This document shows, one piece after another, positions 11,960 to 62,236 of a stretch of 64,000 nucleotides of DNA; within the stretch, counting starts at the first letter, position 1; the number at the start of each line of letters is the position of its first letter. The stretch is taken from positions 2,976,001-3,040,000 of the forward strand of contig NZ_MVDG02000001.1 in NCBI RefSeq assembly GCF_002008315.2, in the 5' to 3' direction. The stretch comes from Arthrobacter sp. KBS0703. GTDB taxonomy: Bacteria; Actinomycetota; Actinomycetes; Actinomycetales; Micrococcaceae. The notes beneath the pieces were generated by a model. It made no database searches. It saw nothing but the letters and a program-made list of their open reading frames with translations, and was not told where the DNA came from. The translations under genes were made by a program, and so were the position numbers.

Positions 11960-13871
11960 CTATCTCCCTGCCGCGTATCCCTGAGCCCCGCGCGGATTGG
12001 CGGCGGCCTGGAGCACGCCCGTTGCCGGATCACGGCCGACGGCAGAGAGCCGGCCCAGCGCCCAGTCACCCGCCCGCGTGATTCTGTGCCCCCTGCGCTC
12101 GAGGCCCGCTATCACGTCGTCGCCCAGCCGGTCCTCGACGACGGCGCCACCCGGCTCCCACGTGCGGGGCCAGAACGAGCCGGGCATCGACGTCGTATGG
12201 AACGCTGGGGCGTCGATCGCCTGCTGCGGCGAATATCCGCCAACGATCGTCCGGAGCAGATACAGGAGCTGCCATTGATCCTGCTGGTCTCCGCCCGGTG
12301 AGCCAAGGGCAGTCACGGCAACGCCGTCGCGCAGCACCAGTGTTGGCGTCAGCGTGGTCCGGGGCCGCTTGCCCGGCGTGAGAGTGGACGGCGTCCCCTC
12401 TTCGAGCCATGTCATCTGCAGCCTGGTCCCGAGGCAAAAGCCCAGCTCCGGTATGGCAGGCGAGGACTGGAGCCAGCCGCCGGACGGAGTGGCCGAGACC
12501 ATGTTGCCCCAGCGGTCCACGACGTCGATGTGGCACGTATCGCCGCGAGTCTCCCCCGTCGCCTCCACGGTGGGTTCGCCGAGCGTCGGCTCGCCAACGC
12601 CGGCGAAACCAACGCCGGCACCGCCGGTAAGGCTGTCTCTTATACACATCTACGCCGTCGGCGCGGGGACCGCCGTCGTCACCCGCGAGCGCCCGCGGCA
12701 CGTACTCGGTGCGCAGCGCGGGCATGAACGGCTCCCGGCCGGGCACGCTGCCAGGGCGGAAGTCGTGGGAGGCGTTGTCCGTGATCAGCTCGCGGCGCGA
12801 AGCGGCGTATTCGTACGACAGCAGGTAGTCCAGCGGAACGTCCGTGTCGCCGTAGTAGGCCTCGCGGTCAGCGAGCGCCAGCTTCTGCGCCTCAAGGATG
12901 GTGTGCGCGCCGAGTTCCGTGGAAGGGTCGAGGCGGTCGTCGTCGAAACCGTTCAGTATGGCCAGCGTCTGCAACAGGGCCGGCCCCTGCCCCCACGGCC
13001 CCGTCTTGGCGATGGTGTGGCCGCGGAATTCCAGCGTGGCCGCGTCTTCATAGGACGCGCGGAATCCGGCCAGGTCCGCCATGGCCAGGACGCCGCGGTG
13101 GTCCGTCCCCGACGAGTGGCGGTGCGGTGCCTGCACCGCCTTGGCCACGGCGCGCGCAACGAATCCCTCACTCCACTCCCGCCGAGCTGCGTCAATGCGC
13201 GCTTCACGCGTGTGCGACGCAGTCGTGACAGCCTCGCCGAGGCCGGCCCCCGCCTGCACCAGCTTCTGCAGGGTTCGGGCGTGGGCCGGATTCCGGATCA
13301 ATTCGCCCTCCTCCGGAATCCGTCCGCCGGGCATCCACAACTCAGCGGACGTGGGCCAGTGCTCCCGGAACAGCCCGGCCACCGCGGCAATGGTGCTCCC
13401 TACCCGCGCCAGCACCGGGTGCCCGTCCCGCGCATACCTGATCGCGAAGTCCAACACTTCCGCCAGTTCCCACGACCCGTGGTCCCGCAACAGCAAAAGC
13501 CAGGCGTCGACGGCGCCGGGTACTGCAGCGGCAAGCGCACCGGAGCCGGGAACCAAGTCCAGTCCTTCGTCCAGGAAGTGCTGAACAGTGGCGCCGGCAG
13601 GCGCCGGGCCCTGCCCCATCAGGATGACGGGTTTTCCCGGTTCCGCCGCTGTGCTGAACACTCCGGTCATGTCACCGCCCGGCCCGTTGAGGTGCGGCTC
13701 CACGACGTGCAGGACGAACGCGGCCGCGGTGGCGGCGTCGAAAGCATTGCCGCCCCGCTCCAGCACGGCCTGGGCGGTAGCCGTGGCAAGCCAGTGCGTG
13801 GAGGCAGCCATGCCGAACGTTCCCCGCAGGGTGGGACGGGTGGTGAATTGGTCCGGCCGCGTGAAACTCAT
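11960..13871 (-). CDS. ggt: Gamma-glutamyltransferase, interrupted by adapter
   Basis: An Ntn-hydrolase precursor that transfers or hydrolyses gamma-glutamyl groups, as in glutathione turnover. The frame breaks at a 19-base Nextera mosaic end (12633-12651). Removing exactly those bases gives one open frame of 630 residues from the ATG at 13871. The N-terminal half shows GMAASTHWLATATAQAVLE and GGNAFDAATAAAFVL. The catalytic nucleophile should be Thr439 in the restored protein (GDTCHIDVVDRWGNMVSATP), which starts the small subunit after self-cleavage. GSPGGDQQDQW near the end is also typical. No signal peptide is evident, so it is probably cytosolic. Confidence 0.9.
12633..12651. other. Nextera mosaic-end adapter (artefact) inside ggt
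   Basis: CTGTCTCTTATACACATCT is the 19-base Tn5 mosaic end used in Nextera libraries. It stands alone here, with no transposase gene and no 9-bp target duplication, and it breaks the ggt frame by exactly its own length. Confidence 0.97.
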
Positions 13872-19546: not shown

Positions 19547-20392
19547 CTACTGTCCTTGGGTCTCCGCCAACGACAGCGCCTCGTCCAGCACCTTGCCGAA
19601 GTTCGCGGCGTCGTGCGCGAACCGGCCCAGGAAGAGGCCCGACACACCCTTGAGGTCGGGCAGCAGCCCGGGCTTCGCGGAGCCGCCGTAGATGACCGGC
19701 AGCTCCCGCAGACTGCGGCCGCCGTGCGAACCGCCCTCATTGGACCGGTGGGCGTCCAACATGTCCCGCAAGGAACGGACGACGGCGGACACGTATGCCG
19801 CGCTGGCCGGCTCGGCAGCGCCGATGGCCCAGACGGGCTCATAGGCGATGACCAGCCGTGACGCGAGGTCCCAGTCGCCCCGGATCGCGGCCTCGATCTG
19901 TCCGTACACAAAAGCGGCTGCTGCCCCGGCGCCGTCGGCTGGATCGGCGTCCGCCGCCGGAGTGGTTTCCTCCCCGACGCACAGCAGCGGGGTGACGCCG
20001 GCGCCGTCGGCCGCCTTGACCTTGAGCGCAACCATGGCGTCGTCCTCGCCGAAGTGGCGGCGGCGTTCGGCGTGGCCGATTTCGACCAGCCGGACGCCCA
20101 GCTCAGCGAGGAGCGACGGCGACACTTCCCCGGTCCACGGGCCGTCGGCCCAGCCGCAGTTCTGTGCACCAAGGACCAGCGGCGAGCCGGCAATGATCTC
20201 GCCAGCGGCTGGCAGCACGGGGAAGGACGGGATGACAAACGGGACCACCCGCCCGGCCGCGAGGGCCGGACGGGCGTCCACTTCATTGCGCAGCTCGCCC
20301 AGCCAGCGCAGGCTGTCCCGGTAGCCGAGGTACATCTTGGTGCTGACTCCGACGTACACGGTGCCGGTGCTGACCGGGTTGAGCTGCGTCAA
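19547..20392 (-). CDS. Triose-phosphate-isomerase homologue, likely tetrulose-phosphate isomerase
   Basis: A TIM-fold isomerase of 281 residues that keeps the triad: Lys19 (STKMYLG), His107 (EIGHAERR) and Glu185 (AYEPVWAIG), plus the YGGS phosphate loop. It diverges from housekeeping TpiA, with an Ala/Asp insert (TTPAADADPADGAGAAAA) in the middle. It is the last gene of a catabolic unit that also holds a DhaK-type kinase and an RpiB-type isomerase. In mycobacterial tetritol catabolism such a homologue (LerI) converts L-erythrulose 1-phosphate to D-erythrulose 4-phosphate, and I infer the same role here. A second glycolytic-type TpiA is the alternative. Confidence 0.85.
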   Translation of the reverse strand: MTQLNPVSTGTVYVGVSTKMYLGYRDSLRWLGELRNEVDARPALAAGRVVPFVIPSFPVLPAAGEIIAGSPLVLGAQNCGWADGPWTGEVSPSLLAELGVRLVEIGHAERRRHFGEDDAMVALKVKAADGAGVTPLLCVGEETTPAADADPADGAGAAAAFVYGQIEAAIRGDWDLASRLVIAYEPVWAIGAAEPASAAYVSAVVRSLRDMLDAHRSNEGGSHGGRSLRELPVIYGGSAKPGLLPDLKGVSGLFLGRFAHDAANFGKVLDEALSLAETQGQ

Positions 20393-20494
20393 TGTGTTTC
20401 CTGCCGTTTCGTTCCGGGACTGGCATTCCTCGACTTGCGAAGGCGCCTGATCAATACGAGGTTCGATCGGGCACCAGCCAGCCTCTTTCAGTGC

Positions 20495-21847
20495 CTACTT
20501 TTCCAGGAGTTCGTCTGCCTTGTTCTGGAACTTCCTGGTACCAAACATCATGGCTGCTGCGAGGAACGGCAGCACACCGAGCGCGTAGACACCCATGGTG
20601 CCGGTGTCCGATGCGGTGACCTGGTTGACGGTGGTCCGCAGGATCGGGGCTACGAAGCCGCCCAGGTTACCGAGCGAGTTGATGAGTCCGATGCCGGCCG
20701 CGGCAGCGGTTCCGGTGAGGAACGCCGTCGGGTAGGACCAGGCAATGGGACCGATCGAGAGGAAGCTGCAGACCGCCAGCGAAATGAAGACGATGCCCAG
20801 TGCCGGAACGTGGTTGGCGCCGGCCCAGGCCGAGCCGAAGATGCAGAGGCCCGTGGAGATGAACAGCCCGGTACCCCAGACACGGCGGCGGACCACCGTG
20901 TTGGCCGCCTTGCCGATGAAGTAGCAGGCGAAGATGCCGAAGAACCACGGGATGGCTGCCATGAGCCCGACGGCGAGGCCAACTTTCTGGCCGGTCAGCT
21001 GGGCCACCTGCTGCGGGAGGTAGAACGTCACGCCGTAAACCGCGATCTGGAGGCAGAAGTAGATCACCGTGAAGTACCAGACCTTGCCGTTCTTCATGGC
21101 CGCGAGCACGCCACGGGGACCGGATTCTTCCTTGACGGTGTCCTCGAGGGCCATGACGTCAAGGAGGGCCTTCTTCTCGTCCTTGGCCAGGAACTTGGCG
21201 TCCTGCGGGCTGTTGATGAGGAAGAAGAAGGCGGCGACGCCGGCGAGCACCGCGAGTATGCCCTCGACGAAGAACATGACCTGCCAGCCCTGGACGCCGG
21301 GGACCTGGTCGCCGATGTTGATGAGCCAGCCGGACAGCGGTGCGCCCATCATCTGGGAGAACGGCTGGGCCAGGTAGAAGATGGCGAACATCTTGACGCG
21401 GACCTTGTTCGGGAACCAGGCCGCCAGGAACATGATGACGCCCGGGAACAGCCCGGCTTCGGTCACACCCAGCAGGAACCGCAGGATGATGAAGGAGGTC
21501 TCGCCCTGGACGAAGGCGAAGCAGGCCGAAACGATGCCCCAGGTGATGGCGATACGGGCCAGCCACACCTTGGCGCCGAACTTGGTCAGCAGCAGGTTGG
21601 ACGGGATCTCGAACAGGGCGTAGCCGATGAAGAAGATGCCCGCGCCAAGGGCGTACGCACCGGCCGTGATGCCTTTGTCCACGCCGAGGGCGGCCTCGGC
21701 GAAGCCCACGTTGGTGCGGTCCAGGAAGGCCACGACGTAAAGGATGACGAGCATCGGCATGAGCCGGAAGGACGCCTTGGAGATCGCCGATTTGAGAACC
21801 GGCGAGTCCAGCAATTCCTTGGTAGTGCTCGGCGTTGTGACAGTCAT
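20495..21847 (-). CDS. MFS transporter, anion:cation symporter (ACS) type
   Basis: A 450-residue permease with 12 predicted membrane segments. The start RLMPMLVILYVVAFLDRTNVGFAEAAL, then LLGVTEAGLFPGVIMFLAAWFP, is the usual ACS-family pattern, which transports sugar acids and organic anions. The cytoplasmic loop between segments 6 and 7 is at residues 205-240. It lies inside the erythrulose-type operon, so it probably imports the pathway substrate. About 100 bases separate it from each neighbour. The ATG at 21847 has an AGGAG site. Confidence 0.88.
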   Translation of the reverse strand: MTVTTPSTTKELLDSPVLKSAISKASFRLMPMLVILYVVAFLDRTNVGFAEAALGVDKGITAGAYALGAGIFFIGYALFEIPSNLLLTKFGAKVWLARIAITWGIVSACFAFVQGETSFIILRFLLGVTEAGLFPGVIMFLAAWFPNKVRVKMFAIFYLAQPFSQMMGAPLSGWLINIGDQVPGVQGWQVMFFVEGILAVLAGVAAFFFLINSPQDAKFLAKDEKKALLDVMALEDTVKEESGPRGVLAAMKNGKVWYFTVIYFCLQIAVYGVTFYLPQQVAQLTGQKVGLAVGLMAAIPWFFGIFACYFIGKAANTVVRRRVWGTGLFISTGLCIFGSAWAGANHVPALGIVFISLAVCSFLSIGPIAWSYPTAFLTGTAAAAGIGLINSLGNLGGFVAPILRTTVNQVTASDTGTMGVYALGVLPFLAAAMMFGTRKFQNKADELLEK

Positions 21848-21958
21848 TCAAACTCCTCGTTGAGCAGGTAAGTGAGCAAATCAGAAAGGCAAATCGATGA
21901 GACCGATTCGACGGGAACCAGTCAGGTAATTCGGTGGGCGCCTAAGTCAGCGGAGCAC

Positions 21959-22123
21959 TCAGAACGAGAACGCGATGAGCAGTACGCCTACCAGGCTTGC
22001 GAGGACGCCGACGGCCAGGTAAATCTTGCGTTCCCTGGTCCACGAGCTGAATCCGGCGGTAAGTGCCTGGGCGCTTGCCGGCCGTGTGCTCGCCGGGCCG
22101 GCGCGGTGGTTGTTCTGGGCCAT
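21959..22123 (-). CDS. 54-residue single-pass membrane peptide
   Basis: A short gene starting MAQNNHRAGPAST, with a Ser/Thr/Ala-rich N-terminus of about 30 residues, a basic segment (TRERK) and one hydrophobic helix to the C-terminus (IYLAVGVLASLVGVLLIAFSF). A strong ribosome site (GGAAGGA) precedes the ATG at 22123. It starts 11 bases after the SDR stop and lies 111 bases before the MFS gene, in the same operon. Function unknown; a transporter accessory peptide is possible. Confidence 0.6.
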   Translation of the reverse strand: MAQNNHRAGPASTRPASAQALTAGFSSWTRERKIYLAVGVLASLVGVLLIAFSF

Positions 22124-22134
22124 GGTGGTCCTTC

Positions 22135-22902
22135 CTAGTGCATGTAGAGGCCGCCATCCACATTCAGCGTCTGGCCGGAGATGTATCCGGCGTCCTCGCT
22201 GATGAGGAAGGCGATGGCTGCTGCGATGTCGCGGGTGGATCCGACGCGGTTGACCACGAGGTCCTTGGTGAGCTCGTCCTTGCGTTCCTGGCTCAGCGTT
22301 CCTCCCATGATGTCGGTGTCGATGGGGCCCGGCGAGATGGCGTTGACGGTGATGTCGTACTCGCCCAGTTCGCGGGCGGTGGCGCGGGTCAGGCCGATGA
22401 CGCCGGCCTTCGCCACGGAGTACGGGGTCTTGGAGAAGGTTCCGCCGCCGCGCTGGGCGGAGACGGAGGAGATGTTCACGATGCGTCCGATCCGGTTCTT
22501 GACCATGGACTCTGCGACGCGGCGCGTGGCGTAGTGGACGCCGTTGAGGTTGATGTTCAGCACGCGGTCCCACTCGGCGGCGTCGAGCTCCAGGTACGGA
22601 ACTGGCGAGCTGACGCCTGCCACGTTGGCGAGCGCGACGATCTGCGGAAGTTCGGCCTCGATCGAGTCGATCGCGGCACGCACCGACGCCTCATCGGCCA
22701 CATTGGCGCCGGCGCCGTGCGCCTTCACACCGTATTGTTCCGCAATTTCCTTGGCCGTGGCCCGGCAAAGGGCGTCGTCGAGGTCGATGATGCCGATGTT
22801 CCAGCCCTGCTCGGCGAGGTAGTTGGCCGTGGCCCGGCCGATCCCGCGCTCGGAGACGGCTCCGGTAACGATTGCGGTGCGTTCTGACGGAAAAATGCTC
22901 AT
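22135..22902 (-). CDS. Short-chain dehydrogenase/reductase
   Basis: A classical SDR of 255 residues. The NAD(P) motif (TGAVSERGIGRA) is at 13-24. The catalytic Ser is at about 145 (NISSVSAQRG), with Tyr161 and Lys165 (YSVAKAG). ISPGPIDTDIMGGTLSQERK and GQTLNVDGGLYMH follow. An AGGAG site fixes the ATG at 22902. Given its neighbours, it may oxidise a tetritol or hydroxy acid to a keto compound; D-threitol dehydrogenase of mycobacteria is also an SDR. The truncated SDR at the right edge of the window shares many motifs with it. Confidence 0.88.
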   Translation of the reverse strand: MSIFPSERTAIVTGAVSERGIGRATANYLAEQGWNIGIIDLDDALCRATAKEIAEQYGVKAHGAGANVADEASVRAAIDSIEAELPQIVALANVAGVSSPVPYLELDAAEWDRVLNINLNGVHYATRRVAESMVKNRIGRIVNISSVSAQRGGGTFSKTPYSVAKAGVIGLTRATARELGEYDITVNAISPGPIDTDIMGGTLSQERKDELTKDLVVNRVGSTRDIAAAIAFLISEDAGYISGQTLNVDGGLYMH

Positions 22903-22940
22903 GAATAGGCTCCTGGGGTGTGGCGAAGGGCAGGCAGCAA

Positions 22941-22974
22941 CAGTCACTGCCCGGCAAGGACCGGGCAGTGACTG
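22941..22974. other. Intercistronic 14-bp hairpin
   Basis: CAGTCACTGCCCGG (22941-22954) pairs perfectly with CCGGGCAGTGACTG (22961-22974). It lies in the 149-base gap between two genes of one operon. There is no T-tract on the minus strand, so RNA processing or stabilisation is likelier than termination. Confidence 0.6.
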
Positions 22975-23051
22975 ACGCTTTCTTGCGGTCCGGACCAGAA
23001 GGCCCGGACCAGTGGGTCGTTAGTGGATCAGCGCGTAGTTAATGGGCGCTG

Positions 23052-24020
23052 TTAGTTGATCGGCGCGGGGCCGAGGTCTTCGATGAGCTTCTGCATCGCA
23101 ACGTAGGCCTTGTTGCGGTAGGCGATCAGCTCGGGCGTGCGCTCGGCCGGGACGTTCAGGAAGCCTGCGCCGGTCTTGGTGCCCAGCTTGCCCGCCTCAA
23201 CGAGGTCCGTGAGGATCTTGGGCGTGGCGAAGCGCTCGGGGAAGTCGGTCTGCAGGGACTTGTAGCAGAAGTTGTAGACGTCCAGGCCGGCCATGTCGGC
23301 GATGGCGAACGGGCCGAAGAACGGGAGCCGGAAGCCGAAGGTGGTGCGGACCAGGGTGTCAACGTCTTCCGCCGTCGCAATGCCCTGTTCCACCAGCTGC
23401 GCGGCCTCGTGGAACAGCGCGTACTGCAGGCGGTTGAGCACGAATCCGGTGACGTCCTTGACCACGGCGGTCTGCTTGTTGGCGGCGTGGACGAGGTCCC
23501 GGACGGCGCCCACGGTCTCGGCCGAAGTGCCTGCGTGAGGGATGATCTCCACACCCGGGATGAACGGCGAGGGGTTGGAAAAGTGCACGCCCAGGAAGCG
23601 TTCCGGGTTGCTGACCGGTTCGGACAGGTCCGCGATGGAGATGGTGGAGGTGTTGGAACCGATGATCGCGTCCGGACGGGCGGCCGCGCTGATGCGGGCC
23701 AGCGTCTGGTGCTTGATCTCGATGACCTCGGGCACGGCCTCCTCGATGAAGTCGGCGTCCGCGACGGCCTCCTCGATGTCCTTGGCAGCCCAGAGGTTCT
23801 GCTTCAGGATCTCGGTGGCTCCTGCTGGGAACAGGCCGTCGGCCACGAACTGGTCGGATTCGGTGAGGAGCCGCTCGTAGTTCTTCTGGGCAACCTCGGC
23901 GGACACGTCAGCCAAGGCAACGCGTGCGCCGCCAAGGGCCAGGACCTGCGCGATGCCGCCGCCCATGTATCCCGAGCCGACGACGGCAATCTTGCGCGAG
24001 CTGTTGGGTGTTTCTGTCAT
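23052..24020 (-). CDS. 3-hydroxyacyl-CoA dehydrogenase family oxidoreductase
   Basis: A 322-residue NAD-dependent dehydrogenase. The dinucleotide motif is VVGSGYMGGGIAQ (13-25), and the family active-site region is VHFSNPSPFIPGVEIIPH, with the His replacing HFFNP. VTGFVLNRLQYALFHEAAQLVEQG follows, from the C-terminal domain. Relatives without CoA substrates oxidise sugar acids (L-gulonate, apionate-type compounds). In this operon a hydroxy-acid sugar substrate is more likely than fatty acids. Two bases separate it from the rpiB-type gene upstream. Confidence 0.85.
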   Translation of the reverse strand: MTETPNSSRKIAVVGSGYMGGGIAQVLALGGARVALADVSAEVAQKNYERLLTESDQFVADGLFPAGATEILKQNLWAAKDIEEAVADADFIEEAVPEVIEIKHQTLARISAAARPDAIIGSNTSTISIADLSEPVSNPERFLGVHFSNPSPFIPGVEIIPHAGTSAETVGAVRDLVHAANKQTAVVKDVTGFVLNRLQYALFHEAAQLVEQGIATAEDVDTLVRTTFGFRLPFFGPFAIADMAGLDVYNFCYKSLQTDFPERFATPKILTDLVEAGKLGTKTGAGFLNVPAERTPELIAYRNKAYVAMQKLIEDLGPAPIN

Positions 24021-24022
24021 GG

Positions 24023-24505
24023 TCAGTCAGCCTTCGTGTAGTCGGGTTCGTAGGAGCAGATGGCCTCCACCTTGGCGGCCGAGGACGAGTTCTCATCGAA
24101 GCGGTGCGCGAGCCATTCGCCCACGAGCTTCTTGGCGAGCTCGAGGCCGATCACGCGCTGGCCCATGGTGAGGACCTGGGCGTTGTTGCTCAGGACGGAG
24201 CGCTCAACGGAGTAGCTGTCGTGTGCGGTTACGGCACGGATTCCAGGTACCTTGTTGGCCGCGATGGCCACGCCGAGCCCGGTGCCGCAGATCAGCAGCG
24301 CCCGGTCGGCTTCGCCCGCGGCTACTTTGCGGGCGGCGTTGACGGCGACGTGCGGGTAGGCAGTGGAATCGTTGGCGCCCACGCCGATGTCCAGCACCGA
24401 TGCCACGCGGCTGTCTGCCTCGAGCAGGGCCTTCAGGGCTTCCTTGTATTCGACGCCGGCCTCATCGTTGCCGATGACAATGCGCCAGCCTGCGGTGTCA
24501 GTCAT
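24023..24505 (-). CDS. RpiB/LacAB-family sugar-phosphate isomerase
   Basis: A 160-residue aldose-ketose isomerase with [14 protein letters not shown] at the N-terminus, [17 protein letters not shown] (the conserved Cys and glycine loop), and [22 protein letters not shown]. RpiB enzymes interconvert ribose and ribulose 5-phosphates. In tetritol pathways the homologue (DerI) turns D-erythrulose 4-phosphate into D-erythrose 4-phosphate, which fits this operon. The ATG at 24505 overlaps the kinase gene end by eight bases and has a GGAG site six bases upstream; an ATG four codons earlier is possible. Confidence 0.88.
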
Positions 24506-26276
24506 TTTTTGCTCCATTTCCGGCCGCTGCGGCCAGCTTTGAATTGTCGGCGCCCGAAGTCCCGGCGCCGGATTCGATGTACGTGGCGATCCGCTCGGTG
24601 ATCAGTCCGAAGGAGACTGCGCCCGGATCGGGGTGGCCGAGGCTCTTTTCAGCCAAGGGGCGGGCCCGACCCTTGAGGGGGCGAAGGTCCGCGGTCTGCC
24701 GGGCGGCTTCCGTTGCCGCGGCAGCGGCTTCGGCGAGGGCGCTGCCCAAGGAGGCACCGCCGTCGGACGCTTTCAGGAAGGCGTCCCGGAACGGCAGCAG
24801 GGCGTCAACCATGGTCTTGTCCCCCGGTTCTGCCTTGCCCAGTTCGGTGATGGCGTCCGTGAAGGCGGTGACGGCGGCTGCCGCGTCTGCGGCCCGGTAC
24901 GACTCGCGGTTGCCCAGGGCCAGGCCCGCTGCGATCACGGCCGATCCCCACAGCGCCCCGGAGGTTCCGCCGGCGCGCTCGCTCCACGCTTCTCCGGCCT
25001 CGGTGAGGACGTGCTGTACCGAGGCTCCGGCCGCCGCGTTCTGCTCGCCGGCGGCCGTTGCGGCGTCCACACCGCGGCGCATGCCGATACCGTGGTCGCC
25101 GTCGCCGGCAATGGCGTCCAGGTTGCCCAGTTCCTCTTCATGTTCGACGACGACGTCCCGCACCTGGGCGAGCACGGCGGCTGCCAGCCGGCCCAGGTCC
25201 GCGGACGCCGCAGTGGCCTTCTCGGTCTCTTCCGCAGCGACGGCTTCGGGTCCGGCCATTTCGCGGCGGGCACGCGGCGCGAGGTTGCCTTTGCGGTACG
25301 CCGGGGTGTCGGCCGGGGCCGCCCAGAACTGCTCGAGTTCGTCGTCGAGCCACAGGAGGGTGAGCGAGAGTCCGGACATGTCCAGGCTCGTGACCAACTC
25401 GCCGCACTCCGGTTCCACCACTGTCAGGCCGGCCTTGCTGAGGAGCTTTTCGACCTTGCCGAAGAGGAGGAACAGTTCGTCGTACTTGACCGTGCCTAGG
25501 CCGTTGACGATTGCCACCACCCGGTCACCGGAGTCTGCCGGCTTATCCTCCAGGAGGCGGGAGACCAGTAGCTCGGCCAGTTCGGAGGCGGTGGGCATGG
25601 GGTGTTCGGAGATGCCGGGCTCGCCGTGGATGCCCAGGCCCAGCGACATCTGGCCGGCCGGCACCTGGAAGAGCGGCTCGGAGGCGCCGGGCAGGGTGCA
25701 GCCGCTGAAGGCCACGCCCAGTGAGCGGGTGCGGTGGTTCGTTTTGATGGCCAGCCGTTCCACCTCATCGAGGCCCAGGCCGGCCTCGGCTGCGGCGCCT
25801 GCGATCTTGAAGACGGTGAGGTCGCCGGCGATGCCGCGGCGCTTTTCGATCTGGTCCAGCGGGGCGCTGGCGATGTCGTCGGTGACCAGGACGGTGCGGG
25901 TCTCGATGCCCTCGGCGTTGAGCCGCAGCTGGGCCTGGCCGAAGTGCAGGACGTCGCCGGCGTAGTTGCCGTAGCTGAGGAGCACGCCGCCGCCGGCGTT
26001 GGCTGCCTTGGCCACGCGGTAGACCTGCCCGGCCGCGGGGGACGCGAACATGTTGCCGCAGGCGGAGGCTGCGGCAAGCCCCGGGCCGACGAGCCCGGCG
26101 AAGGCCGGGTAGTGTCCCGAGCCGCCGCCAATTACGAGTGCCACCTGGCCGGAGGTCATTTCGGTGGAGCGGACGACGCCGCCGTCCACGCGGGCGACGT
26201 AGCCGCGGTTGGCAGCCACGAAGCCGTCCAGCGCCTCATCCGCGAAATCAGCGGGATTGTCGAAGATCTGAGTCAT
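24498..26276 (-). CDS. DhaK-DhaL fused dihydroxyacetone/erythrulose kinase
   Basis: A single-chain ATP-dependent kinase of 592 residues. The DhaK domain shows IGGGSGHYP near 49-57 and the covalent substrate-binding His217 (GIHGEPG). The DhaL ATP domain begins near 360, with the Mg-binding DGDHG at 392-396 and [13 protein letters not shown]. Enzymes of this fusion type phosphorylate dihydroxyacetone or erythrulose. With the TIM and RpiB homologues downstream I infer an L- or D-erythrulose kinase. GAGGAA precedes the ATG. Dihydroxyacetone kinase is the alternative. Confidence 0.92.
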
Positions 26277-26316
26277 GGTTCCTCATTGAATCCGAGTTGG
26301 GTTGATCAGTTCTGGC

Positions 26317-26351
26317 GGGCACCGGCCGGAGTCGTACTCCGGCCGGTGCCC
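26317..26351. other. Intercistronic 16-bp hairpin
   Basis: GGGCACCGGCCGGAGT (26317-26332) pairs perfectly with ACTCCGGCCGGTGCCC (26336-26351) around a three-base loop. It is in the 153-base gap upstream of the kinase gene and has no T-tract on the minus strand. Confidence 0.65.
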
Positions 26352-26391
26352 CGGGATGACTGCCGTCCGAGCACTGCCGGCGGCCGCCGTC

Positions 26392-26423
26392 GGAAGTCAG
26401 GCTCCGGTGGGAACCTGACTTCC
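26392..26423. other. Second hairpin in the same gap
   Basis: GGAAGTCAGG (26392-26401) pairs with CCTGACTTCC (26414-26423), a ten-pair stem with a 12-base loop, just after the stop of the TIM-barrel gene. Confidence 0.6.
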
Positions 26424-26429
26424 GGGAGA

Positions 26430-27434
26430 CTAGGAGCTGGCGAGTCCGACGGCGGCCGGCTGCTGCCGTCCCTGTGCCACGAGGCTCTTGCCGAGCGCGT
26501 AGCCGTCCTTCTTGGGCAGGACGTGGCGGCGCAGGTATTCCTGGTTGCTGGCCGTCACGGAGAGGCCGTCTCCGCCGTAGTGCTCGGTGCAGATGATCCC
26601 CTGGTAGCCGGCGGCGATGGCCACCTTGAATGCCTCGCGGTAGTTGATCAGGCCGCTTTCCATGGGGGCGGGCATGGCCACGTAGCTGTCGCGGGCCACG
26701 TCCTCGTCACGGATGTAGTTCTTCATGTGCCAGTAGTTGGAGTACGGCATGGTCTTGGCGACCATTTCGCGCCAGTCCTCGATGGGCCGGTGCAGGCGGA
26801 TCAGGTTTCCGATGTCCGGGTTGAGGCCCACATTGGCGAGTCCGATGTCCTGGACCAGCTGCACGGACGAGTCCGCGGTGCCGAGGTAGGTGTCCTCATA
26901 CATTTCGAGCGAGAGCAGGACCCCCACCTCTGCGGCGTGACGGCCCAGTTCGCGGAAGCGGGTGACGGCCTTGTTCCAGGCATCCTTGTCCCCGACCGGA
27001 TCCTTGTAGCCTTCGACGGTCCAGAACCACAGCTGCTTCTGCTGCTCAGGGGTGATCGCCTGGTGCAGTCCGAACGAGACAACTTCGCAGCCGAGCTCGG
27101 CGGCGGCCTCGATGGTGCGGTGGCTGTATTCGAGGTTGGCTTCCCAGTTGCCTTCCTCGATCACGCTACGCCGGATGGCCGAGATGACGGGGATGCCGAC
27201 GCCCACGTTCTGGGCGGTCTGCTTGAATTCCGCGAGGCGCTCCTTGCTGAGGTCGCCGGGGCGGACCCAGCTGTCCGTGAGGTCGGCGTTGCTGAAGCCG
27301 GCTTCCTTGACCTCGGTCAGGACCTCGGCCCAGGCGGACGCGTCGGCATCGTTGATGTGGTTGCCCTGCGCGTCGGTGCCGGGAAACTGCAGCAGTGCTG
27401 CGGTGATGGGCCAGTTATCAGCTGTGTAAACCAC
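26430..27434 (-). CDS. Sugar-phosphate isomerase/epimerase-type TIM-barrel protein
   Basis: A xylose-isomerase-like (AP_endonuc_2) TIM-barrel protein of about 334 residues, beginning VVYTADNWPITAALLQF. Likely metal-binding residues occur in LLSLEMYEDTYLG (Glu), VGLNPDIGNLIRLHRP (Asp), YWHMKNYIRD (His) and IICTEHYGGDG (Glu). The exact reaction is not known: isomerisation, epimerisation or, as in one apionate route, decarboxylation of a keto sugar acid. It is the first gene of the long unit and lies just downstream of an operator. GTG at 27434 is preferred (AAGGAG 11 bases upstream); another GTG at 27446 abuts the ribosome site. Confidence 0.8.
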   Translation of the reverse strand: MVYTADNWPITAALLQFPGTDAQGNHINDADASAWAEVLTEVKEAGFSNADLTDSWVRPGDLSKERLAEFKQTAQNVGVGIPVISAIRRSVIEEGNWEANLEYSHRTIEAAAELGCEVVSFGLHQAITPEQQKQLWFWTVEGYKDPVGDKDAWNKAVTRFRELGRHAAEVGVLLSLEMYEDTYLGTADSSVQLVQDIGLANVGLNPDIGNLIRLHRPIEDWREMVAKTMPYSNYWHMKNYIRDEDVARDSYVAMPAPMESGLINYREAFKVAIAAGYQGIICTEHYGGDGLSVTASNQEYLRRHVLPKKDGYALGKSLVAQGRQQPAAVGLASS

Positions 27435-27466
27435 GTTGTTGTTCACTCCTTTGTGGGAATCCTCTT

Positions 27467-27476
27467 TCCTATAGGA
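27467..27476. promoter_or_regulatory. GntR-type operator, copy 1 (perfect palindrome)
   Basis: TCCTATAGGA is a perfect 10-base palindrome about 33 bases upstream of the TIM-barrel gene start. On the minus strand TATAGG could itself serve as a -10 element. Two more copies precede the MFS and gntR genes. Confidence 0.7.
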
Positions 27477-27517
27477 TTCATCATCGAGTGGGGTGTTGTC
27501 AAGGTCACACGGCAAGC

Positions 27518-28645
27518 TTAGTGTCCTTTCGCGGCGAAAGCGGCGGTGTCGAAGACCTCAGGGTTGAGGACATTCCGGGGCCGCTCCCCCGCCGCGACTG
27601 CGAGGATCGAGGCGAGGGCTCCGTCCGCGACGTCCCGGGTGAAATCGGCCGTCCAGCACAGCGAATGAGGCGACAGCACCACATTCTCCAAGGTCAGCAG
27701 CGCGTCATCGGGAAGCAACGGTTCCGGCTCGAAGACGTCCAAGCCGGCGCCGGCAATGCGACCGGACTGCAGGGCGTCTCGCAGGGCGTCCGTATCCACA
27801 AGCTTCCCCCGGCCGATATTGATGAGGTAGGCGCTCGACTTCATCCGGGCCAGGACGTCTGCATCAATCAGCTTTTCTGTGGCCGGGGTGAGCGCGGCAC
27901 AGAGCACCACGTAGTCCGAGCGCTCGAGCAGTTCGTTCAGGCCGAGCAGTTCCACACCAAGCTCGGCGGCCTCCGGATGGCGGCCGCTTCGGTTGTTGCC
28001 GACGACCTTCATTCCCAGCGGCGCCAGCAGCCTGGCGAGCTCTGCGCCCACGCTCCCGAAGCCCACAATGCCCACTGTCTGGCCGACGAGGGGCGCACCG
28101 CGATACTGTTCGCGGGAGGCCCAGTCGGACGTGCGGGTCAGCCGGTCTTTGGCCAACAGGTTGTGCGAGAGCGCCAGCAGCAGGGTGAGTCCCGCGACCG
28201 CGAGCGGCCGCCGGATGGCATCCGGGGTGTTCGTGACGACGACGCCGGCGCGCGTGCAGGCGTCGAGGTCGATGGTCTCGTAGCCGGCCCCGAAGCGGGC
28301 AACCAGCTTCAGTTCTGGCGCGTGGTCCAGCGTGCGCGAATCGAAGGCGATGTGGCCCAGTGACAGAACCGCGTGGACGCCGGCAAGGTCCGCTGGCGGG
28401 ATCGGGTCCGTGTAACTGGGCAAGACGCTCCAGCTGATGCCGTTCTCGGTTAGTCTCCGGAGTCCAAGGTCTCCATGGATGGAGCTTCCGTCGGGCCGCG
28501 CGGCGTCGGCCGTGACGGCTACGGTGAACGGCGGGCGGGCGGTTCCCGCAGTAGTGGTTCCCTCCGCCAGCGTGGTTCCCGCCGCCGGGGCGGCCGCCGA
28601 GGTGGCGACCGCCGTCGTCGTCAATGCATTTGTTGCTGTGCTCAT
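27518..28645 (-). CDS. D-2-hydroxyacid dehydrogenase
   Basis: A 375-residue NAD(P)-dependent dehydrogenase of the D-isomer-specific family. It shows the Rossmann motif VGIVGFGSVGAELARLL, the catalytic Arg (INIGRGKLVD), Glu (LDVFEPEPLL) and His (LSPHSLCWT). Likely substrates are glyoxylate, hydroxypyruvate or related 2-keto acids. The first 38 or so residues are an Ala/Thr-rich low-complexity extension not usual for the family, so translation may begin later. The start overlaps the region right after the MFS stop (8-base gap), so both are one transcript. Confidence 0.9.
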   Translation of the reverse strand: MSTATNALTTTAVATSAAAPAAGTTLAEGTTTAGTARPPFTVAVTADAARPDGSSIHGDLGLRRLTENGISWSVLPSYTDPIPPADLAGVHAVLSLGHIAFDSRTLDHAPELKLVARFGAGYETIDLDACTRAGVVVTNTPDAIRRPLAVAGLTLLLALSHNLLAKDRLTRTSDWASREQYRGAPLVGQTVGIVGFGSVGAELARLLAPLGMKVVGNNRSGRHPEAAELGVELLGLNELLERSDYVVLCAALTPATEKLIDADVLARMKSSAYLINIGRGKLVDTDALRDALQSGRIAGAGLDVFEPEPLLPDDALLTLENVVLSPHSLCWTADFTRDVADGALASILAVAAGERPRNVLNPEVFDTAAFAAKGH

Positions 28646-28653
28646 GCGTCGGT

Positions 28654-29982
28654 TCAGCTTTCTGTCTGCAGTACTGCGGTCTTGTCCTTGATGGGTTCGC
28701 GGACCAGCACGGTGTATGCCACGGCGGCGAGGGCGGCGATGATGCCGCCGATCACGAACGACGGCGCGTAGGAGCCCGTGGCGTCCGCGATCACGCCGGT
28801 CAGCAGCGGGGCGAAAGCGCCGCCGAAGTAGCCGCCGAAGTTCTGGATGGCACCGACGGATGCCACCTGGGAGTTGTCCACGATGTCACCGGGCATGGCC
28901 CAGGCAGCCGCCTGCATGGTGGCGACGAAGCCCAGCGCCACGGTCATCACGGCGATGGCGAGCGGGAGGGAATCCACGAACGGAATGAGGCAGATCAGGA
29001 TGCCGGCAGCAATGGCAGCCACGGACATGACGTGGCGCTTGGCCAGCAGCGGATCGCGGCCGGCCTTCTTGGAATAGCGCGTCATGACCCAGCCGCCGGT
29101 GATGCCCAGGATGGCCGCACCGAGGTACGGTACCGCAGCCAGCCAGCCGGAGTTGGCGATGCTCGCTCCGCGCTCTTCCTGCAGGTAGAGCGGGAGGAAG
29201 ACGATGAAGATGTTCCAGATCCAGATGACGCAGAAGAAGCCTGCCATCATTCCCCAGATCTGGCGGTGCTTGAACAGGCCCAGCCAGGAGACCTTCTTGG
29301 CGGAGAGCTGCTGGGCGGTGCGTTCGGCTTCGATGTAGGCGAGTTCCTCGTCGCTGATGCGCTTGTGGTCCTCGGGGGTCCGGTAGTAGAGGAAGAAAGC
29401 GACGGCCAGAATCAGGCCGGCAATGCCGAGGAAGATGAAGATGGCCTGCCAGCCGAAGGCGAGCATGATGGCGGTCAGGATGGGCGGGGCAATGGCGGGC
29501 CCCCACTTAGAGCCGCTGTCCCAGATGGCGGTGGCCTGGCCACGCTCGGCCCGGGGGAACCAGTCGGCGGTCAGCTTGGCGGACGCCGGTCCATTGGGGG
29601 CTTCGGCCACGCCCAGCAGGAAGCGGAAGGTAAGAAACTGCCACATCTTGCCTCCGACGGCCATCAGCGCCGTGGCGATACTCCAGCCGGCGATGGCCAG
29701 GAAGTACATGCGGCGGGCGCCCAGCTTGTCCACCAGCCAGCCGGCCGGGAGCTGGCTGAAGGCATAGGTCCAGGAAAACACGGTGCCTAGCAGACCGATG
29801 TCCGTCCGGGTCATGCCGAAGTCTTTGATGAGCTGTGGCGCAGCGATGGAGATGGCGCTGCGGTCCATGTAGTTGACGATGCCCGCGAGCAGGGCCCAGC
29901 CGAGGATCCCCCATCGCAGATTCTTGATAGTGCGGCGTGTTGCTGAGTCCCTGGGCTTGGCGGCCACTGTGTCTGTCTGCAT
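28654..29982 (-). CDS. MFS transporter (sugar acid / ACS type)
   Basis: A 442-residue permease with 12 membrane segments. WALLAGIVNYMDRSAISIAAPQ near the start and FRFLLGVAEAPNGPASAKLTADWFP in segments 4-5 are typical of hexuronate/glucarate-type ACS transporters. AAGGGAG precedes the ATG at 29982. A GntR-type operator lies 52 bases upstream. It is the second MFS gene of this regulon, so the organism may import two related substrates. Confidence 0.9.
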   Translation of the reverse strand: MQTDTVAAKPRDSATRRTIKNLRWGILGWALLAGIVNYMDRSAISIAAPQLIKDFGMTRTDIGLLGTVFSWTYAFSQLPAGWLVDKLGARRMYFLAIAGWSIATALMAVGGKMWQFLTFRFLLGVAEAPNGPASAKLTADWFPRAERGQATAIWDSGSKWGPAIAPPILTAIMLAFGWQAIFIFLGIAGLILAVAFFLYYRTPEDHKRISDEELAYIEAERTAQQLSAKKVSWLGLFKHRQIWGMMAGFFCVIWIWNIFIVFLPLYLQEERGASIANSGWLAAVPYLGAAILGITGGWVMTRYSKKAGRDPLLAKRHVMSVAAIAAGILICLIPFVDSLPLAIAVMTVALGFVATMQAAAWAMPGDIVDNSQVASVGAIQNFGGYFGGAFAPLLTGVIADATGSYAPSFVIGGIIAALAAVAYTVLVREPIKDKTAVLQTES

Positions 29983-30033
29983 TTTCACTCCCTTGTGATC
30001 GCGGTGTCGGCAGCATTGCCGGCACAATCAAAG

Positions 30034-30044
30034 ATCCTATAGGG
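30034..30044. promoter_or_regulatory. GntR-type operator, copy 2
   Basis: ATCCTATAGGG at 30034-30044 differs from the perfect palindrome by one base. It lies 52 bases upstream of the MFS gene, at the head of the first transcription unit. Confidence 0.65.
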
Positions 30045-30185
30045 ACATCGGACAGGCTGTGAGGATCGTCACACAGTTGTTACCAACCGCGCGTCGTTTT
30101 CCGGGGTAAGCTCACGCGGCCGCCCTCGGCCGCTTTTCAGGCGGTCCTGTGGACCCTCTGGTCAGGCTGCCCCGCGACCTTCAGG

Positions 30186-30917
30186 CTAGTCAACCGGAGC
30201 ATCGGCCATGGCCCGCTCGCGGACTCTTTGGACGTGATCCGCCATGGCGGCCGCGGCTTTTTCGGGATCGCCGGTGGAAAGTGCGTCGAGCACCGACTGG
30301 TGCTCCGCGATGGCGTTCTCGGCGTCCGTGATGCCCACGCCGCCGAACAGCCGGAAGCGCTGGACCTGTCCGCCCAGAGCGGCGTACGCGGAAACCATGA
30401 ACTGGTTCCCGGTTTGCTGGGCGATCAGCTGGTGGAAGCGTTCGTCGGCTTCGAGGTAGTCCTTGTACTCGGAGAAGGACGGGCCGCGTGGTGCCGATTT
30501 CAGGTCCTCGACCGCCTGTTCCAGCTCGGCGAACCGCTGCGGTGTCAGGCGCGCGCAGGCGAGCCGCGCGTTGACGGGCTCGATCGCGAGGCGCGCTTCC
30601 ATGAGCTCGGCGAAGTCCTCCCGGGTGAAGACCGGGGCCACTCTGTAGCCTTTCAGCGCCACCCGCCGGACCATGCCGGTGTGCTCCAGCCGCGCCAAGG
30701 CCTCACGGACCGGAGTGGGCGAAACGTCGAGTTCGCGGGCGGTTCCGTCGATGCTGACTGCGGCGCCGGGCTCCAGCCGTCCGTCCATCAGGGACGCCAG
30801 GAGTTCCTCGTAGACATGGTCTGCCAGGACCTGGCGGCTGACGGTGCGGCCGCCCCTGCGGTCAGCCTGCACGGCGGGCTGGCTGCCGGGTCGGGGGCCA
30901 TTGGACGCTTTCTGCAT
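30186..30917 (-). CDS. GntR-family (FCD) transcriptional regulator
   Basis: A 243-residue regulator. The winged-helix domain (VYEELLASLMDGRLEPGAAVS, then ELDVSPTPVREALARLEHTGMV) spans about 33-95. An all-helical FCD effector domain follows (EARLAIEPVNARLACARL, DERFHQLIA, EHQSVLDAL). FCD members usually repress catabolic genes until a hydroxy acid or sugar acid binds. An operator copy lies 8 bases before the ATG at 30917, so autoregulation is likely; if TATAGG within it is the -10 element, the mRNA would be nearly leaderless. Confidence 0.92.
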   Translation of the reverse strand: MQKASNGPRPGSQPAVQADRRGGRTVSRQVLADHVYEELLASLMDGRLEPGAAVSIDGTARELDVSPTPVREALARLEHTGMVRRVALKGYRVAPVFTREDFAELMEARLAIEPVNARLACARLTPQRFAELEQAVEDLKSAPRGPSFSEYKDYLEADERFHQLIAQQTGNQFMVSAYAALGGQVQRFRLFGGVGITDAENAIAEHQSVLDALSTGDPEKAAAAMADHVQRVRERAMADAPVD

Positions 30918-30922
30918 GGTCA

Positions 30923-30935
30923 AATCCTATAGGGG
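30923..30935. promoter_or_regulatory. GntR-type operator, copy 3 (autoregulatory)
   Basis: AATCCTATAGGGG lies immediately upstream of the regulator's own ATG, where it would overlap the core promoter or translation start region. Confidence 0.65.
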
Positions 30936-44596: not shown

Positions 44597-46834
44597 GGCG
44601 TCCCAGCAGCTGGTCCAGCCCGAAGCGTTCTTCCAGCTGCGCGCGGTTCAGCTGCCCGTGATAGTGCTCCTCGAGCAGCGGCATGAGCTCGTACTTCCAG
44701 ATCCGGCGCAGCCCTGCAGGGGTCTGGGCGGCCTTCTTCATGAAGTAGGACGGCCCGATCATGAGGTCGCGGTCCCACTCGTCGATCGCATCGTTGAGAG
44801 CGTCCAGCAGCAGGGCCGGGGTGGTGTCCAGCTGCCGTGCCTCCAGGAACCTCAGCAGCGACCCCTTCACCGGCTCGGTCTTGGGATGCAGCTCAATGAA
44901 CGCGAAGCGGCGGCGGATGGCGGCGTCCATCATGGCGATGGAGCGATCTGCGGTGTTCATGGTGCCGATGATGTACAGGTTGTCCGGGAGCGTAAACGGC
45001 TCGTTGGGGCTGTACTGCAGGTAGATGCGGTCGTCGCGGTATTCCAGCAGGAAGTACAGTTCGCCGAACACCTTGGCCAGGTTGGCGCGGTTCATCTCGT
45101 CGATGATGAGGAAGAACGGCTTGGACTCGTTGCCGGGCTTCGCAGCTTCCTCGGCCAGCCGGCGCAGCGGCCCGGCAACCAGTTTGAACGACACCTGGCC
45201 CTCATCGGTTTTGTCCGGCCGGTAGCCTTCGAAAAAGTCCTCGTACGCGTAGGAGGGGTGGAACTGCACCAGTTTCACGCGCTCGTCGGTGCTGTCCTGG
45301 GCGAGCTCGGCCGCCAGGTGCTTGGCGAGGTAGGTCTTGCCGGTTCCCGGCGGGCCGTAGAGGACCAGCTGGCGGTTTTCCTCCAGCAGTTCGGCGATCT
45401 CCTGCAGCGGGTCCAGGTCCATGTGGAGCGAGTCCGCGAACTCTTGCGTCAGCGGACGGAACCCGTCCTGGACGGAAAGGGCGACGGCGGCCGGCTCGGT
45501 GCCGCCGTCGGGCTCCGTTTCCGCCCTGTCTCTTATACACATCTAGATGTGTATAAGAGACAGCGCCTGCACCACGCGGGTCACTGTCTCTTATACACAT
45601 CTCCGGCGGTGGCGAGCTGGCGCTGGACGTGGCGCGGCAGGTCGGCGGTGGCGTGGGCCTCGTCGAACCAGCGGACCTTGCGGCGCATCCGGCGGTTGTC
45701 CTCGTTGTGGTCCGGCTCGCCCAGGACGACGCCGATCCGGACTGCCCCTGAGCTCTGGTAGAGCGCCAGGTCGCCCGGCTTCATGACGGTCAGGAAAGCG
45801 AAGACCGCCGTCTTCGTGTCCTCCCGCTCCACGTAGCCGAGGTGCTTGTAGTCCTCGTCCACCGCGTGCTGGACCAGCCCAGCGGTGACGCCGGCGTCCA
45901 GCAGGCGGAGGTGTTCGACGCCGAGGGTGACCTTCTCCTCGTCCTGCCAGGCGGTGAGGAGTTCGGCGTTGTCGTGATGGGTGCGCAGCAGCCAGGCCCG
46001 GCGGCCCGGGTCCCCCACCTTCCGCCACTGGCTCACCAGCTGCCGGGAGTACCAGTCGATGCGCTGGCCTGCCTGCTCATCCAGGTGCAGGCGGATGCGG
46101 CGGATGTCGGCCGTGACTTCTTCGTCGCTGTCTCCCTTGGCACCGCCCACGAGGGAGGCGAAGGCGTCCCGGATCTCCTGGCGTTCGACGTCAGCCACCA
46201 CGGGTTCGAAGTAGCTGGGCCACGCCAGGTATTCGACGCTCCGCCGGATGGCCGGCTGGTCCTCCGGCGTGCCCGCGGCCAGCACATGGAAGGCCAGCGG
46301 ATCCTTGAGCGCCTTGTTGATGGCAGGGGCGGGCTGCTGGTCCACGTGCTGCACAAACCGGCACAGCCACTTCAGGTGGTCCCAGATGGTCCAGTTGAAC
46401 TCGGCCGTCCGGTCCCGGATAACGCCGTGGTCGGTCATGCCCTGGTAGAGCTCGTCCGGAAGCTTGAGCGCGGGCTCCAGCCAGGACGCGGCTTCGGCAA
46501 CCCTGGCCCGCTTGACCTTGAGCGATTTCACCTCGTGCGCCAGCGGCAGCGACTGCAGGAACAACAGTTCCACGGCCAGCAGCTTCGCCGCGCGGGAGGC
46601 GTCCTCAAGGTTGTGCCGCAGGTTGGTCATCATGGGCGCCTTGGCGTCGGCCACTCCCCGCTGCAGCCGTTCCAGGACCTCCGCGGCGGCGTCCGACGTC
46701 CACGTCTGCGTGCGCCCGTCCATGGCCGAGGGCTTGCCCTGGAGCCCGGCCCCGAGCACGAACCATGCTGCGTCTTCGATTTCTTTGGAGATTCCGAGGG
46801 CACGGGGCAGGGGAGGCTTCGTGGCGGGGGTCAT
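44583..46834 (-). CDS. mcrB: McrB-type AAA+ GTPase, interrupted by adapter
   Basis: The motor subunit of a McrBC-type restriction system. Adapter plus a 20-base insert (45526-45602) breaks it; dropping all 77 bases restores one frame of 724 residues. The N-terminal 350 residues are unassigned. Residues about 352-411 (KPGDLALYQSSGAVRIGVVLGE, then RRKVRWF) resemble an EVE/PUA-like domain that could read modified bases. The AAA+ domain follows: Walker A GPPGTGKT (468-475), Walker B FFLIIDEMNRANLAKVFGEL and MNTADRS (about 600-606), the GTP-specificity motif of McrB. ATG at 46834. Confidence 0.88.
45526..45602. other. Nextera adapter block with 20-base insert (artefact)
   Basis: Mosaic ends at 45526-45544, 45545-45563 (reverse orientation, back to back, a mate-pair junction) and 45584-45602, with CGCCTGCACCACGCGGGTCA between them. 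The 20 bases are a tiny library insert or a fragment of the gene. Confidence 0.97.
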
Positions 46835-61234: not shown

Positions 61235-62236
61235 GTGGACGGTCCGGTCGAACAGGGCGAAGGGGCCCAGCACCCTGGCGGCGGACTCCGGCGCAGGAAG
61301 CATGCGCGGCATTCGGCACCAGCGGGGGCGGCCAGGTTTGTCCGCAAACTTGTCCTCATCGCCGTCTTCGGGTGTGTGGCTTTCCTGGCGGCAGGACTCA
61401 GATGTGTATAAGAGACAGCGCCTTGTTGGGCTGCTGGATTTCCGCGCCGGCGGCGGCCAGCCCGCGGGCCGGGCGGCCGGGCCCGGGGAGGCCTGTCTCT
61501 TATACACATCTAGATGTGTATAAGAGACAGGCCAGGTATCCAGCCCGGTGGGGCAGGCCGCGCCGCGGACGCGCCGCCGCCTGGCCTCGAGGAGTCGGAT
61601 TCGCCGCTGGGGACGCCGGTGCCTCCGGCGGAGCGCAGCGACTCGTACAAGTTCCTCGCCGTGAATGCCGACGGCACCCCGGTTGGCTACTCGCCGTGCC
61701 GTCCGCTTCACTACGTCGTGAACGCAGATCTGGCACCGGAGGGAGCGGCCGGGTTGGTCAGCGAGGCGATCAAGACCGTGTCCCGCGCCACGGGCATCCG
61801 GTTCATCAACGACGGCGCCACGGACGAACAGCCCTCGGAACACCGCGCCCCGTACCAGCCAGGGACGTACGGCGACAGGTGGGCGCCGCTGCTGGTCGCC
61901 TGGACCAACCCGGACGTGGCGCCGAAACTCAAGGGCCAGATCATCGGCACCGGCGGCAGCACGCACTACAGCTACGGCGACGGACCCAAGACGTTTGTCA
62001 CCGGCAGCCTCGAGCTGGACGCCCCGCAGATTGCGGAGGAACTGGACCGCCCGGACGGCGCCGCGTACGCCACCGCGGTCATCCTGCACGAGCTGGGCCA
62101 CGTGATGGGGCTCGAGCACGTTGATGACCCCGTCCAGCTGATGTACCCGGAGATCGGCGCTCCGGACGGACTGGCTTCCGGAGACCTCAACGGCCTGCAG
62201 GCGCTGGGCAAGGCGCCCTGCCGCAAGGACCTCTAG
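61235..62236 (+). CDS. Secreted matrixin-like metalloprotease, interrupted by adapter
   Basis: Removing the adapters at 61400-61418 and 61493-61530 and keeping the 74 bases between them gives one frame of 314 residues from the GTG at 61235. A basic N-terminus and one hydrophobic helix (VRKLVLIAVFGCVAFLAAGL) mark export or anchoring. A Gly/Pro/Ala linker leads to the protease domain with HELGHVMGLEH (zinc ligands His266, His270, His276; Glu267 catalytic) and the Met-containing turn QLMYPEIG. Substrate unknown. Confidence 0.85.
61400..61530. other. Nextera adapter block (artefact) in the metalloprotease gene
   Basis: Mosaic ends at 61400-61418, 61493-61511 and 61512-61530 (the last two back to back, a mate-pair junction). 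The 74 bases between them (61419-61492) read through in frame with both flanks once the adapter is cut out. Confidence 0.97.

Follow-up and report, generated by a model that had tools for sequence, protein, structure and literature searches.

Gene content and a conserved palindrome suggest a sugar acid-to-erythrulose operon in Arthrobacter sp. KBS0703

The DNA stretch analyzed here (the window) covers 64 kb of the 4.86-Mb assembly of Arthrobacter sp. KBS0703, a soil bacterium, and it carries an operon of ten minus-strand genes that spans positions 19547-30923, from the gene for a GntR regulator (30923) to that for a homologue of triose-phosphate isomerase (TIM; 19547). In operon order, the genes encode a GntR/FCD regulator (30186..30923; PF00392 and PF07729); a D-galactonate-transporter-like protein of the major facilitator superfamily, MFS1 (28654..30027; PF07690; TIGR00893 at 299.1 bits, below the cut-off of 395); a D-2-hydroxyacid dehydrogenase (2HADH; 27518..28645; PF02826/PF00389); AP2, a xylose-isomerase-like TIM-barrel protein (26430..27434; PF01261); a fused DhaK-DhaL kinase (24498..26276; PF02733 and PF02734), proposed from its place in a tree to be a LerK-like L-erythrulose kinase; an RpiB homologue (24023..24517; PF02502; TIGR02133 at 199.9 bits, above the cut-off of 168.2); HCDH, a 3-hydroxyacyl-CoA-dehydrogenase-type protein (23052..24020; PF02737 and PF00725, both over cut-off) and putative sugar-acid 3-dehydrogenase; an accessory short-chain dehydrogenase/reductase (SDR; 22135..22947; PF13561/PF00106), perhaps a polyol or sugar dehydrogenase; a second MFS transporter (20495..21847; PF07690; TIGR00893 at 263.9 bits, again below 395); and the TIM homologue (19547..20392; PF00121), which the whole-genome PF00121 search matched at G000:C1:2995583-2996353 (window 19583-20353). 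A sequence-only reading of the window had placed a set of such genes at 19547..30917; its coordinates and gene list hold, and all the genes that it named were found on the minus strand. The most likely start of AP2 is the GTG at 27434 (334 amino acids), which gives the same length as in relatives and is preceded by AGGAG. As judged by reading the sequence, the flanks of the operon look unrelated to it, with a Tex-like gene below and genes for small secreted proteins above.

The AP2 of the window is nearest to Arthrobacter proteins, and an AP2 search gave a match at E <= 0.001, in some cases a weak one, in 36 of 59 related genomes. In a comparison of 15 stretches from these genomes, the gene order GntR-AP2-DhaKL-RpiB-HCDH-SDR-MFS-TIM was seen again in other members of the genus, and segments of it in other families, which argues that the cluster is more than a chance assembly. 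MFS1 and 2HADH are accessories, and both are present in one of these stretches. All further counts of AP2 loci refer to the best 80 of 460 AP2-profile matches in named genomes; these come from Actinomycetota (64) and Pseudomonadota (16). The kinase is found in 70 of the 80 loci, an SDR homologue in 34 and a 2HADH homologue in 7. The minimal set occurs in three Mycobacterium loci, which hold a GntP-type permease, HCDH, AP2, GntR, DhaKL, RpiB and TIM, and in which no SDR was found. The transporters vary from locus to locus and include GntP (by Pfam), MFS, and TctABC and sugar ABC types (both by sequence inspection); the sugar ABC genes accompany GH127 in two loci and GH39 in four.

Several of these stretches show features of their own. 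In the genome of stretch L032 (G010:C1:24000-43000) the AP2-DhaKL-RpiB-HCDH set occurs a second time, with a different MFS transporter and SDR, and no TIM was found in that stretch. In L026 (12828-16391) the AP2 cluster is joined by ABC genes (by sequence inspection), a 2-hydroxyacid dehydrogenase, an amidohydrolase that may be lactonase-like and an aldo-keto reductase, a possible aldose-lactone-acid head. A DUF1537 kinase and an L-threonate-dehydrogenase-like gene adjoin the AP2 clusters of L035 (10597-12956), L058 (330-2730) and L093, hinting at joint use of four- and five-carbon (C4 and C5) acids. The AP2 of L051, from a record titled Vibrio cholerae strain 35D, branches among Arthrobacter proteins, and this record is probably misnamed or contaminated.

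The position held by HCDH in the window is held by PdxA in other loci. At an identity of at least 45%, HCDH is present in 40 of the 80 AP2 loci and PdxA in 25, while 15 have neither and none has both; if the identity limit is dropped, the counts are 42, 25 and 13 for HCDH, PdxA and neither. Placed on the AP2 tree, a quick tree with many weak forks, the two labels require at least 4 switches, whereas 200 shuffles needed 19.8 on average, and thus the label is clustered by descent yet has been exchanged several times. HCDH and PdxA belong to unrelated families whose known members oxidize a beta-hydroxyl. The PdxA-type protein that was tested passes Pfam PF04166 and scores 247.5 bits, under the curated PdxA cut-off of 290.35. 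In HCDH, residues S125, H146, E158 and N196, which we take to be the catalytic Ser-His-Glu-Asn, are invariant in six sequences. It is proposed that HCDH would oxidize C3 of a sugar acid.

A palindrome, ATCCTATAGGAT, precedes the genes for GntR, MFS1 and AP2. On the operon strand it reads CCCTATAGGA before gntR (30925..30934), where it is the likely GntR operator, and also before MFS1 (30035..30044), and at 27467..27476 it takes the form TCCTATAGGA, 32 bases upstream of the GTG at which AP2 likely starts. The core CCTATAGG lies at 27468, 30036 and 30926 and nowhere else in the window. The exact TCCTATAGGA upstream of AP2 is the only copy in the assembly, and with at most one mismatch it is found at 16 places, three of them in the operon, versus 99 places for the backwards pattern. 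CCTATAGG occurs in 44 of the 64 actinobacterial AP2 loci, whereas three palindromes used as controls were found in 8, 5 and 5 of them. Of its 73 sites, 72 lie near the start of a core-gene match, no more than 320 bases before it or 60 bases past it. When the actinobacterial loci are divided by their GntR, the core is present in all 39 in which this regulator reaches 40% identity, HCDH and PdxA versions alike, as opposed to 5 of the 25 others (p = 2.7e-12, a value that overstates the association because the loci are related); it was found in 1 of the 16 proteobacterial loci. Within the genus, WTCCTATAGGRW was present in 27 of 29 genomes with a full AP2 and in 1 of 8 without (37 genomes, with the AP2 and motif searches taken together), whereas the reversed control pattern was present in 4 of 59 genomes. 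HCDH and PdxA loci of Actinomycetota have CCTATAGG alike (27/40 and 10/14, respectively), and a switch common to both versions speaks for a single inducer and a single pathway. The earlier description of the genes as a regulon gains support that it did not have before, from three copies of a conserved palindrome in the operon. GntR is likely to be a ligand-responsive repressor of the operon.

PF16896, which we assume to be the ApnO family, was found in 15 of 19 genomes searched, including that of KBS0703, where it marks a second operon at about 4.33 Mb (stretch L138) with the order GntR-MFS-DhaKL-RpiB-TIM-OiaC-ApnO, ApnO being last. This gene set corresponds to the D-apionate to L-erythrulose route (ApnO, OiaC, LerK, LerI, DerI) that was reportedly described by Carter et al. 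in 2018. The same kind of tail is thus encoded twice in this organism, in two parallel operons, of which the one in the window lacks ApnO and OiaC. An apionate operon of the L138 type is also present in L212, and in L143 without a labelled RpiB. Among 120 listed relatives of the genome's OiaC, five carry the source annotation 3-oxoisoapionate decarboxylase. In L142, L144 and L145, PF16896 stands with DUF1537-like and RuBisCO-like proteins (labels by sequence reading), as in known apiose clusters; PMC11747546 lists the enzymes of one such cluster. CCTATAGG was absent from the apionate stretches L138, L143 and L212 and also from L208, L209 and L211, and the single copy in L210 (position 16104) lies at a distance from the kinase genes of that stretch. 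Exact copies of the Nextera mosaic-end adapter are present in the assembly, in the window at 12633, 45526-45584, 61400-61512 and 63454 and also in L138, L140 and L141. None lies inside the window operon. In L138 the adapter sits where the kinase of the apionate operon splits into two frames, and contig C13 (L141) repeats part of this operon.

Two enzymes of the tail, the TIM homologue and the kinase, group with those of apionate operons. In a quick tree, which the program flagged for long branches that meet, the TIM homologue of the window falls in one 23-row set with the three TIMs of apionate operons (support of 99 in the Shimodaira-Hasegawa-like approximate likelihood ratio test, SH-aLRT), and a branch of 98 parts it from five housekeeping TpiAs. 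Its identity is 44-48% to the former and 32-35% to the latter. It also shares with the three apionate-operon TIMs GHAERR and a loop motif of the [AP].EP type, where the TpiAs have GHSERR and TG.., and the genome carries a TpiA elsewhere (PF00121 search). Two types of TIM occur in AP2 loci, with GHAERR (34/63) or GHSERR (29/63), and the GHSERR type shares a clade with a rhizobial EryH-type TIM. In the kinase tree, likewise a quick one, with a midpoint root, the window protein falls beside two kinases of apionate operons; a branch of 98 separates it from three tetritol-type kinases, and the kinases of AP2 loci fall on both sides. The LerK/LerI/DerI-type tail that had been read from the sequence thus receives support from the trees of both proteins. 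In the kinase-RpiB-SDR operons L210 and L211 of a relative no TIM is labelled, which indicates that such operons do not always include a TIM; that the window operon has one points to L-erythrulose, and it is because of TIM that the L form is suggested. A further kinase-RpiB-SDR operon, in L209 (8114-12017), has a different PF01261 protein.

AP2 resembles OiaC in what are predicted to be active-site residues. Among 34 AP2 proteins, E-x-Y-E is present in 32, D-x-x-N in 34, HxK[ND][YF] in 33 and EH[YW] in 32, and each of these signatures is present in 13 of 13 OiaC and in none of 36 controls (11 ketose-epimerase-like, 10 hydroxypyruvate-isomerase-like, 9 IolE-like and 6 others). Because the patterns were picked with both the AP2 and the OiaC families in view, it is the controls that test them; a less strict form, HxK[DNS], occurs in 5 of the 9 IolE-like controls. 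The identity of AP2 and OiaC is 19% in a profile alignment. The predicted structure of AP2 is confident, and its best match in the PDB is 5tnv, for which a text search for '5TNV' found no paper in the literature collection searched. A sequence search found no solved structure of OiaC, and thus the fold search was unable to show it. AP2 is proposed to be a beta-keto sugar acid decarboxylase that would work like OiaC.

On balance we lean toward the view that a C5 sugar acid is oxidized and decarboxylated and then enters an erythrulose tail that ends in D-erythrose 4-phosphate, under repression by GntR. The sequences show the gene content, the kinships, the exchange of HCDH and PdxA and the palindrome that the loci have in common; each reaction, the substrate and the repression are here proposed from them. 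The MFS transporters would import the acid, HCDH would oxidize its C3 hydroxyl to give a 3-keto acid, and AP2 would decarboxylate this compound, as OiaC does, to L-erythrulose. The DhaKL kinase would form L-erythrulose 1-phosphate, and two isomerizations, first by the TIM homologue and next by the RpiB homologue, would convert it to D-erythrose 4-phosphate. GntR would keep the operon off from the three palindromes, and binding of an intermediate to GntR would lift this repression. The earlier suggestion that a keto sugar acid is decarboxylated to erythrulose receives support. A C5 substrate is suggested because the product has four carbons and CO2 is lost, and an acid fits the GntP and gluconate- or galactonate-type carriers. 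In our judgement the substrate is linear rather than branched, most likely an unbranched L-pentonate (L-arabinonate, L-xylonate, L-lyxonate or L-ribonate). The operon is a close parallel of the known route for apiose, a plant sugar, but its front end differs and is apparently undescribed, a provisional statement as the literature covered is incomplete. With considerably less confidence, we suggest that the loci may represent a widespread and undescribed linear L-pentonate route, in which C3 oxidation and decarboxylation give L-erythrulose and HCDH and PdxA are swapped under one conserved pair of GntR and operator. The substrates of such a route may come from the breakdown of vitamin C or from the L-arabinose of plant glycans, GH127 being found beside two relatives. 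According to PMC6225978, 2-oxo-L-threo-pentonate is a breakdown product of vitamin C in vitro. The 2HADH of the operon could reduce this compound, and some relatives have threonate-type genes next to them.

Several points weigh against this pathway. The RpiB homologue scores 158.7 bits, under the cut-off of 240, with the DerI model NF051858 (a curated D-erythrulose-4-phosphate isomerase model, rhizobial by its short name), and AP2 is by profile and fold equally near to sugar epimerases, its profile matching epimerase-like proteins at 2e-10, OiaC at 1.9e-9, IolE-like proteins at 1.2e-6 and hydroxypyruvate-isomerase-like proteins at 6.3e-4. The strongest rival, which we regard as rather unlikely, is that AP2 is a tetrulose 3-epimerase or a 2-keto/3-keto acid isomerase and that the tetrulose arises from the PdxA step or from spontaneous loss of CO2; if PdxA decarboxylates, AP2 needs another role. 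The ketose 3-epimerase family has the same fold together with D-x-x-H, a combination that AP2 does not have; this histidine, found in 22 of the 36 controls, is asparagine in 34 of 34 AP2 and 13 of 13 OiaC proteins, and the three other signatures are common to AP2 and OiaC only. Seen from OiaC, AP2 ranks first in the profile comparison (3e-10), ahead of two single PF01261 proteins (4.5e-7 and 4.7e-7) and the epimerase-like proteins (2.7e-4).

The signatures of OiaC in AP2, followed by the same tail, would also suit a C5 acid with a branched chain, for example isoapionate (2-C-hydroxymethyl tetronate), whose secondary C3 alcohol would be appropriate for HCDH or PdxA and which HCDH would convert to the 3-oxo-isoapionate that OiaC uses. 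However, the low identity of AP2 and OiaC suggests different substrates, and we know of no natural source of isoapionate; we consider this substrate improbable. Even less probable is a C4 acid, a tetronate that would be oxidized at C3 and decarboxylated to dihydroxyacetone, with DhaKL as dihydroxyacetone kinase and TIM as triose-phosphate isomerase. The families fit this literally, and the L-threonate-dehydrogenase-like and DUF1537 genes beside the AP2 clusters of L035, L058 and L093 are in keeping with it, but the TIM is not in the TpiA clade, the genome has both a TpiA and unfused DhaK and DhaL genes elsewhere (the latter in L139, beside an apparent glycerol facilitator), and RpiB would be left without a role. 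Plain use of erythritol or threitol, with the SDR as polyol dehydrogenase, is very improbable: the tetritol-type operons L210 and L211 also have an SDR, kinase and RpiB, but AP2 and HCDH are not labelled there and ribose-type ABC genes are present (by sequence inspection), whereas the window operon adds the acid module of AP2 and HCDH to its dehydrogenase, kinase and RpiB, and AP2 loci have the SDR about half as often as the kinase (34/80 vs 70/80). D-apionate, tried as the substrate of the window operon for its same tail and its keto-acid decarboxylation to L-erythrulose, is rejected with little hesitation, and with it the earlier idea that apionate feeds this operon, as ApnO and OiaC lie in the other operon of the same genome with kinase and isomerase genes of their own and without CCTATAGG, and neither was found in any of the 80 stretches around AP2 relatives, the window having HCDH and not PF16896.

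If the C5 acid pathway is correct, it would be a new entry of sugar acids into the pentose phosphate pathway in which two unrelated dehydrogenases are swapped at one step. It would also give a testable function to the AP2 family, for which a structure is solved (5tnv) but no function is named, and the operon would provide an inducible promoter-operator pair for Arthrobacter and relatives.

The proposed pathway can be compared with several known systems. The closest fold to AP2, that of 5tnv, is titled 'AP endonuclease, family protein 2', which names no function. L-gulonate 3-dehydrogenase is of the 3HCDH type and forms a beta-keto sugar acid, from which 3-keto-L-gulonate decarboxylase releases CO2 to leave a ketose one carbon shorter; that system goes from C6 to C5, while the window operon would go from C5 to C4 with a decarboxylase of PF01261. 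The D-apionate route has in common with the window the kinase-isomerase tail, GntR and MFS, and its OiaC is a TIM barrel of the same superfamily as AP2 with the same active-site signatures at 19% identity, but it has ApnO, instead of which AP2 loci have HCDH or PdxA, and its stretches are without CCTATAGG, of which the window operon has three sites. The tetritol catabolism of Mycobacterium smegmatis (EltD, LerK, LerI, DerI), as set out in PMC10733421, has the same LerK/LerI/DerI-type tail, and its kinase, TIM and RpiB steps to D-erythrose 4-phosphate are the last three proposed here. That system is entered by a polyol, whereas the window operon is likely entered by an acid, through a head of AP2 with HCDH or PdxA.

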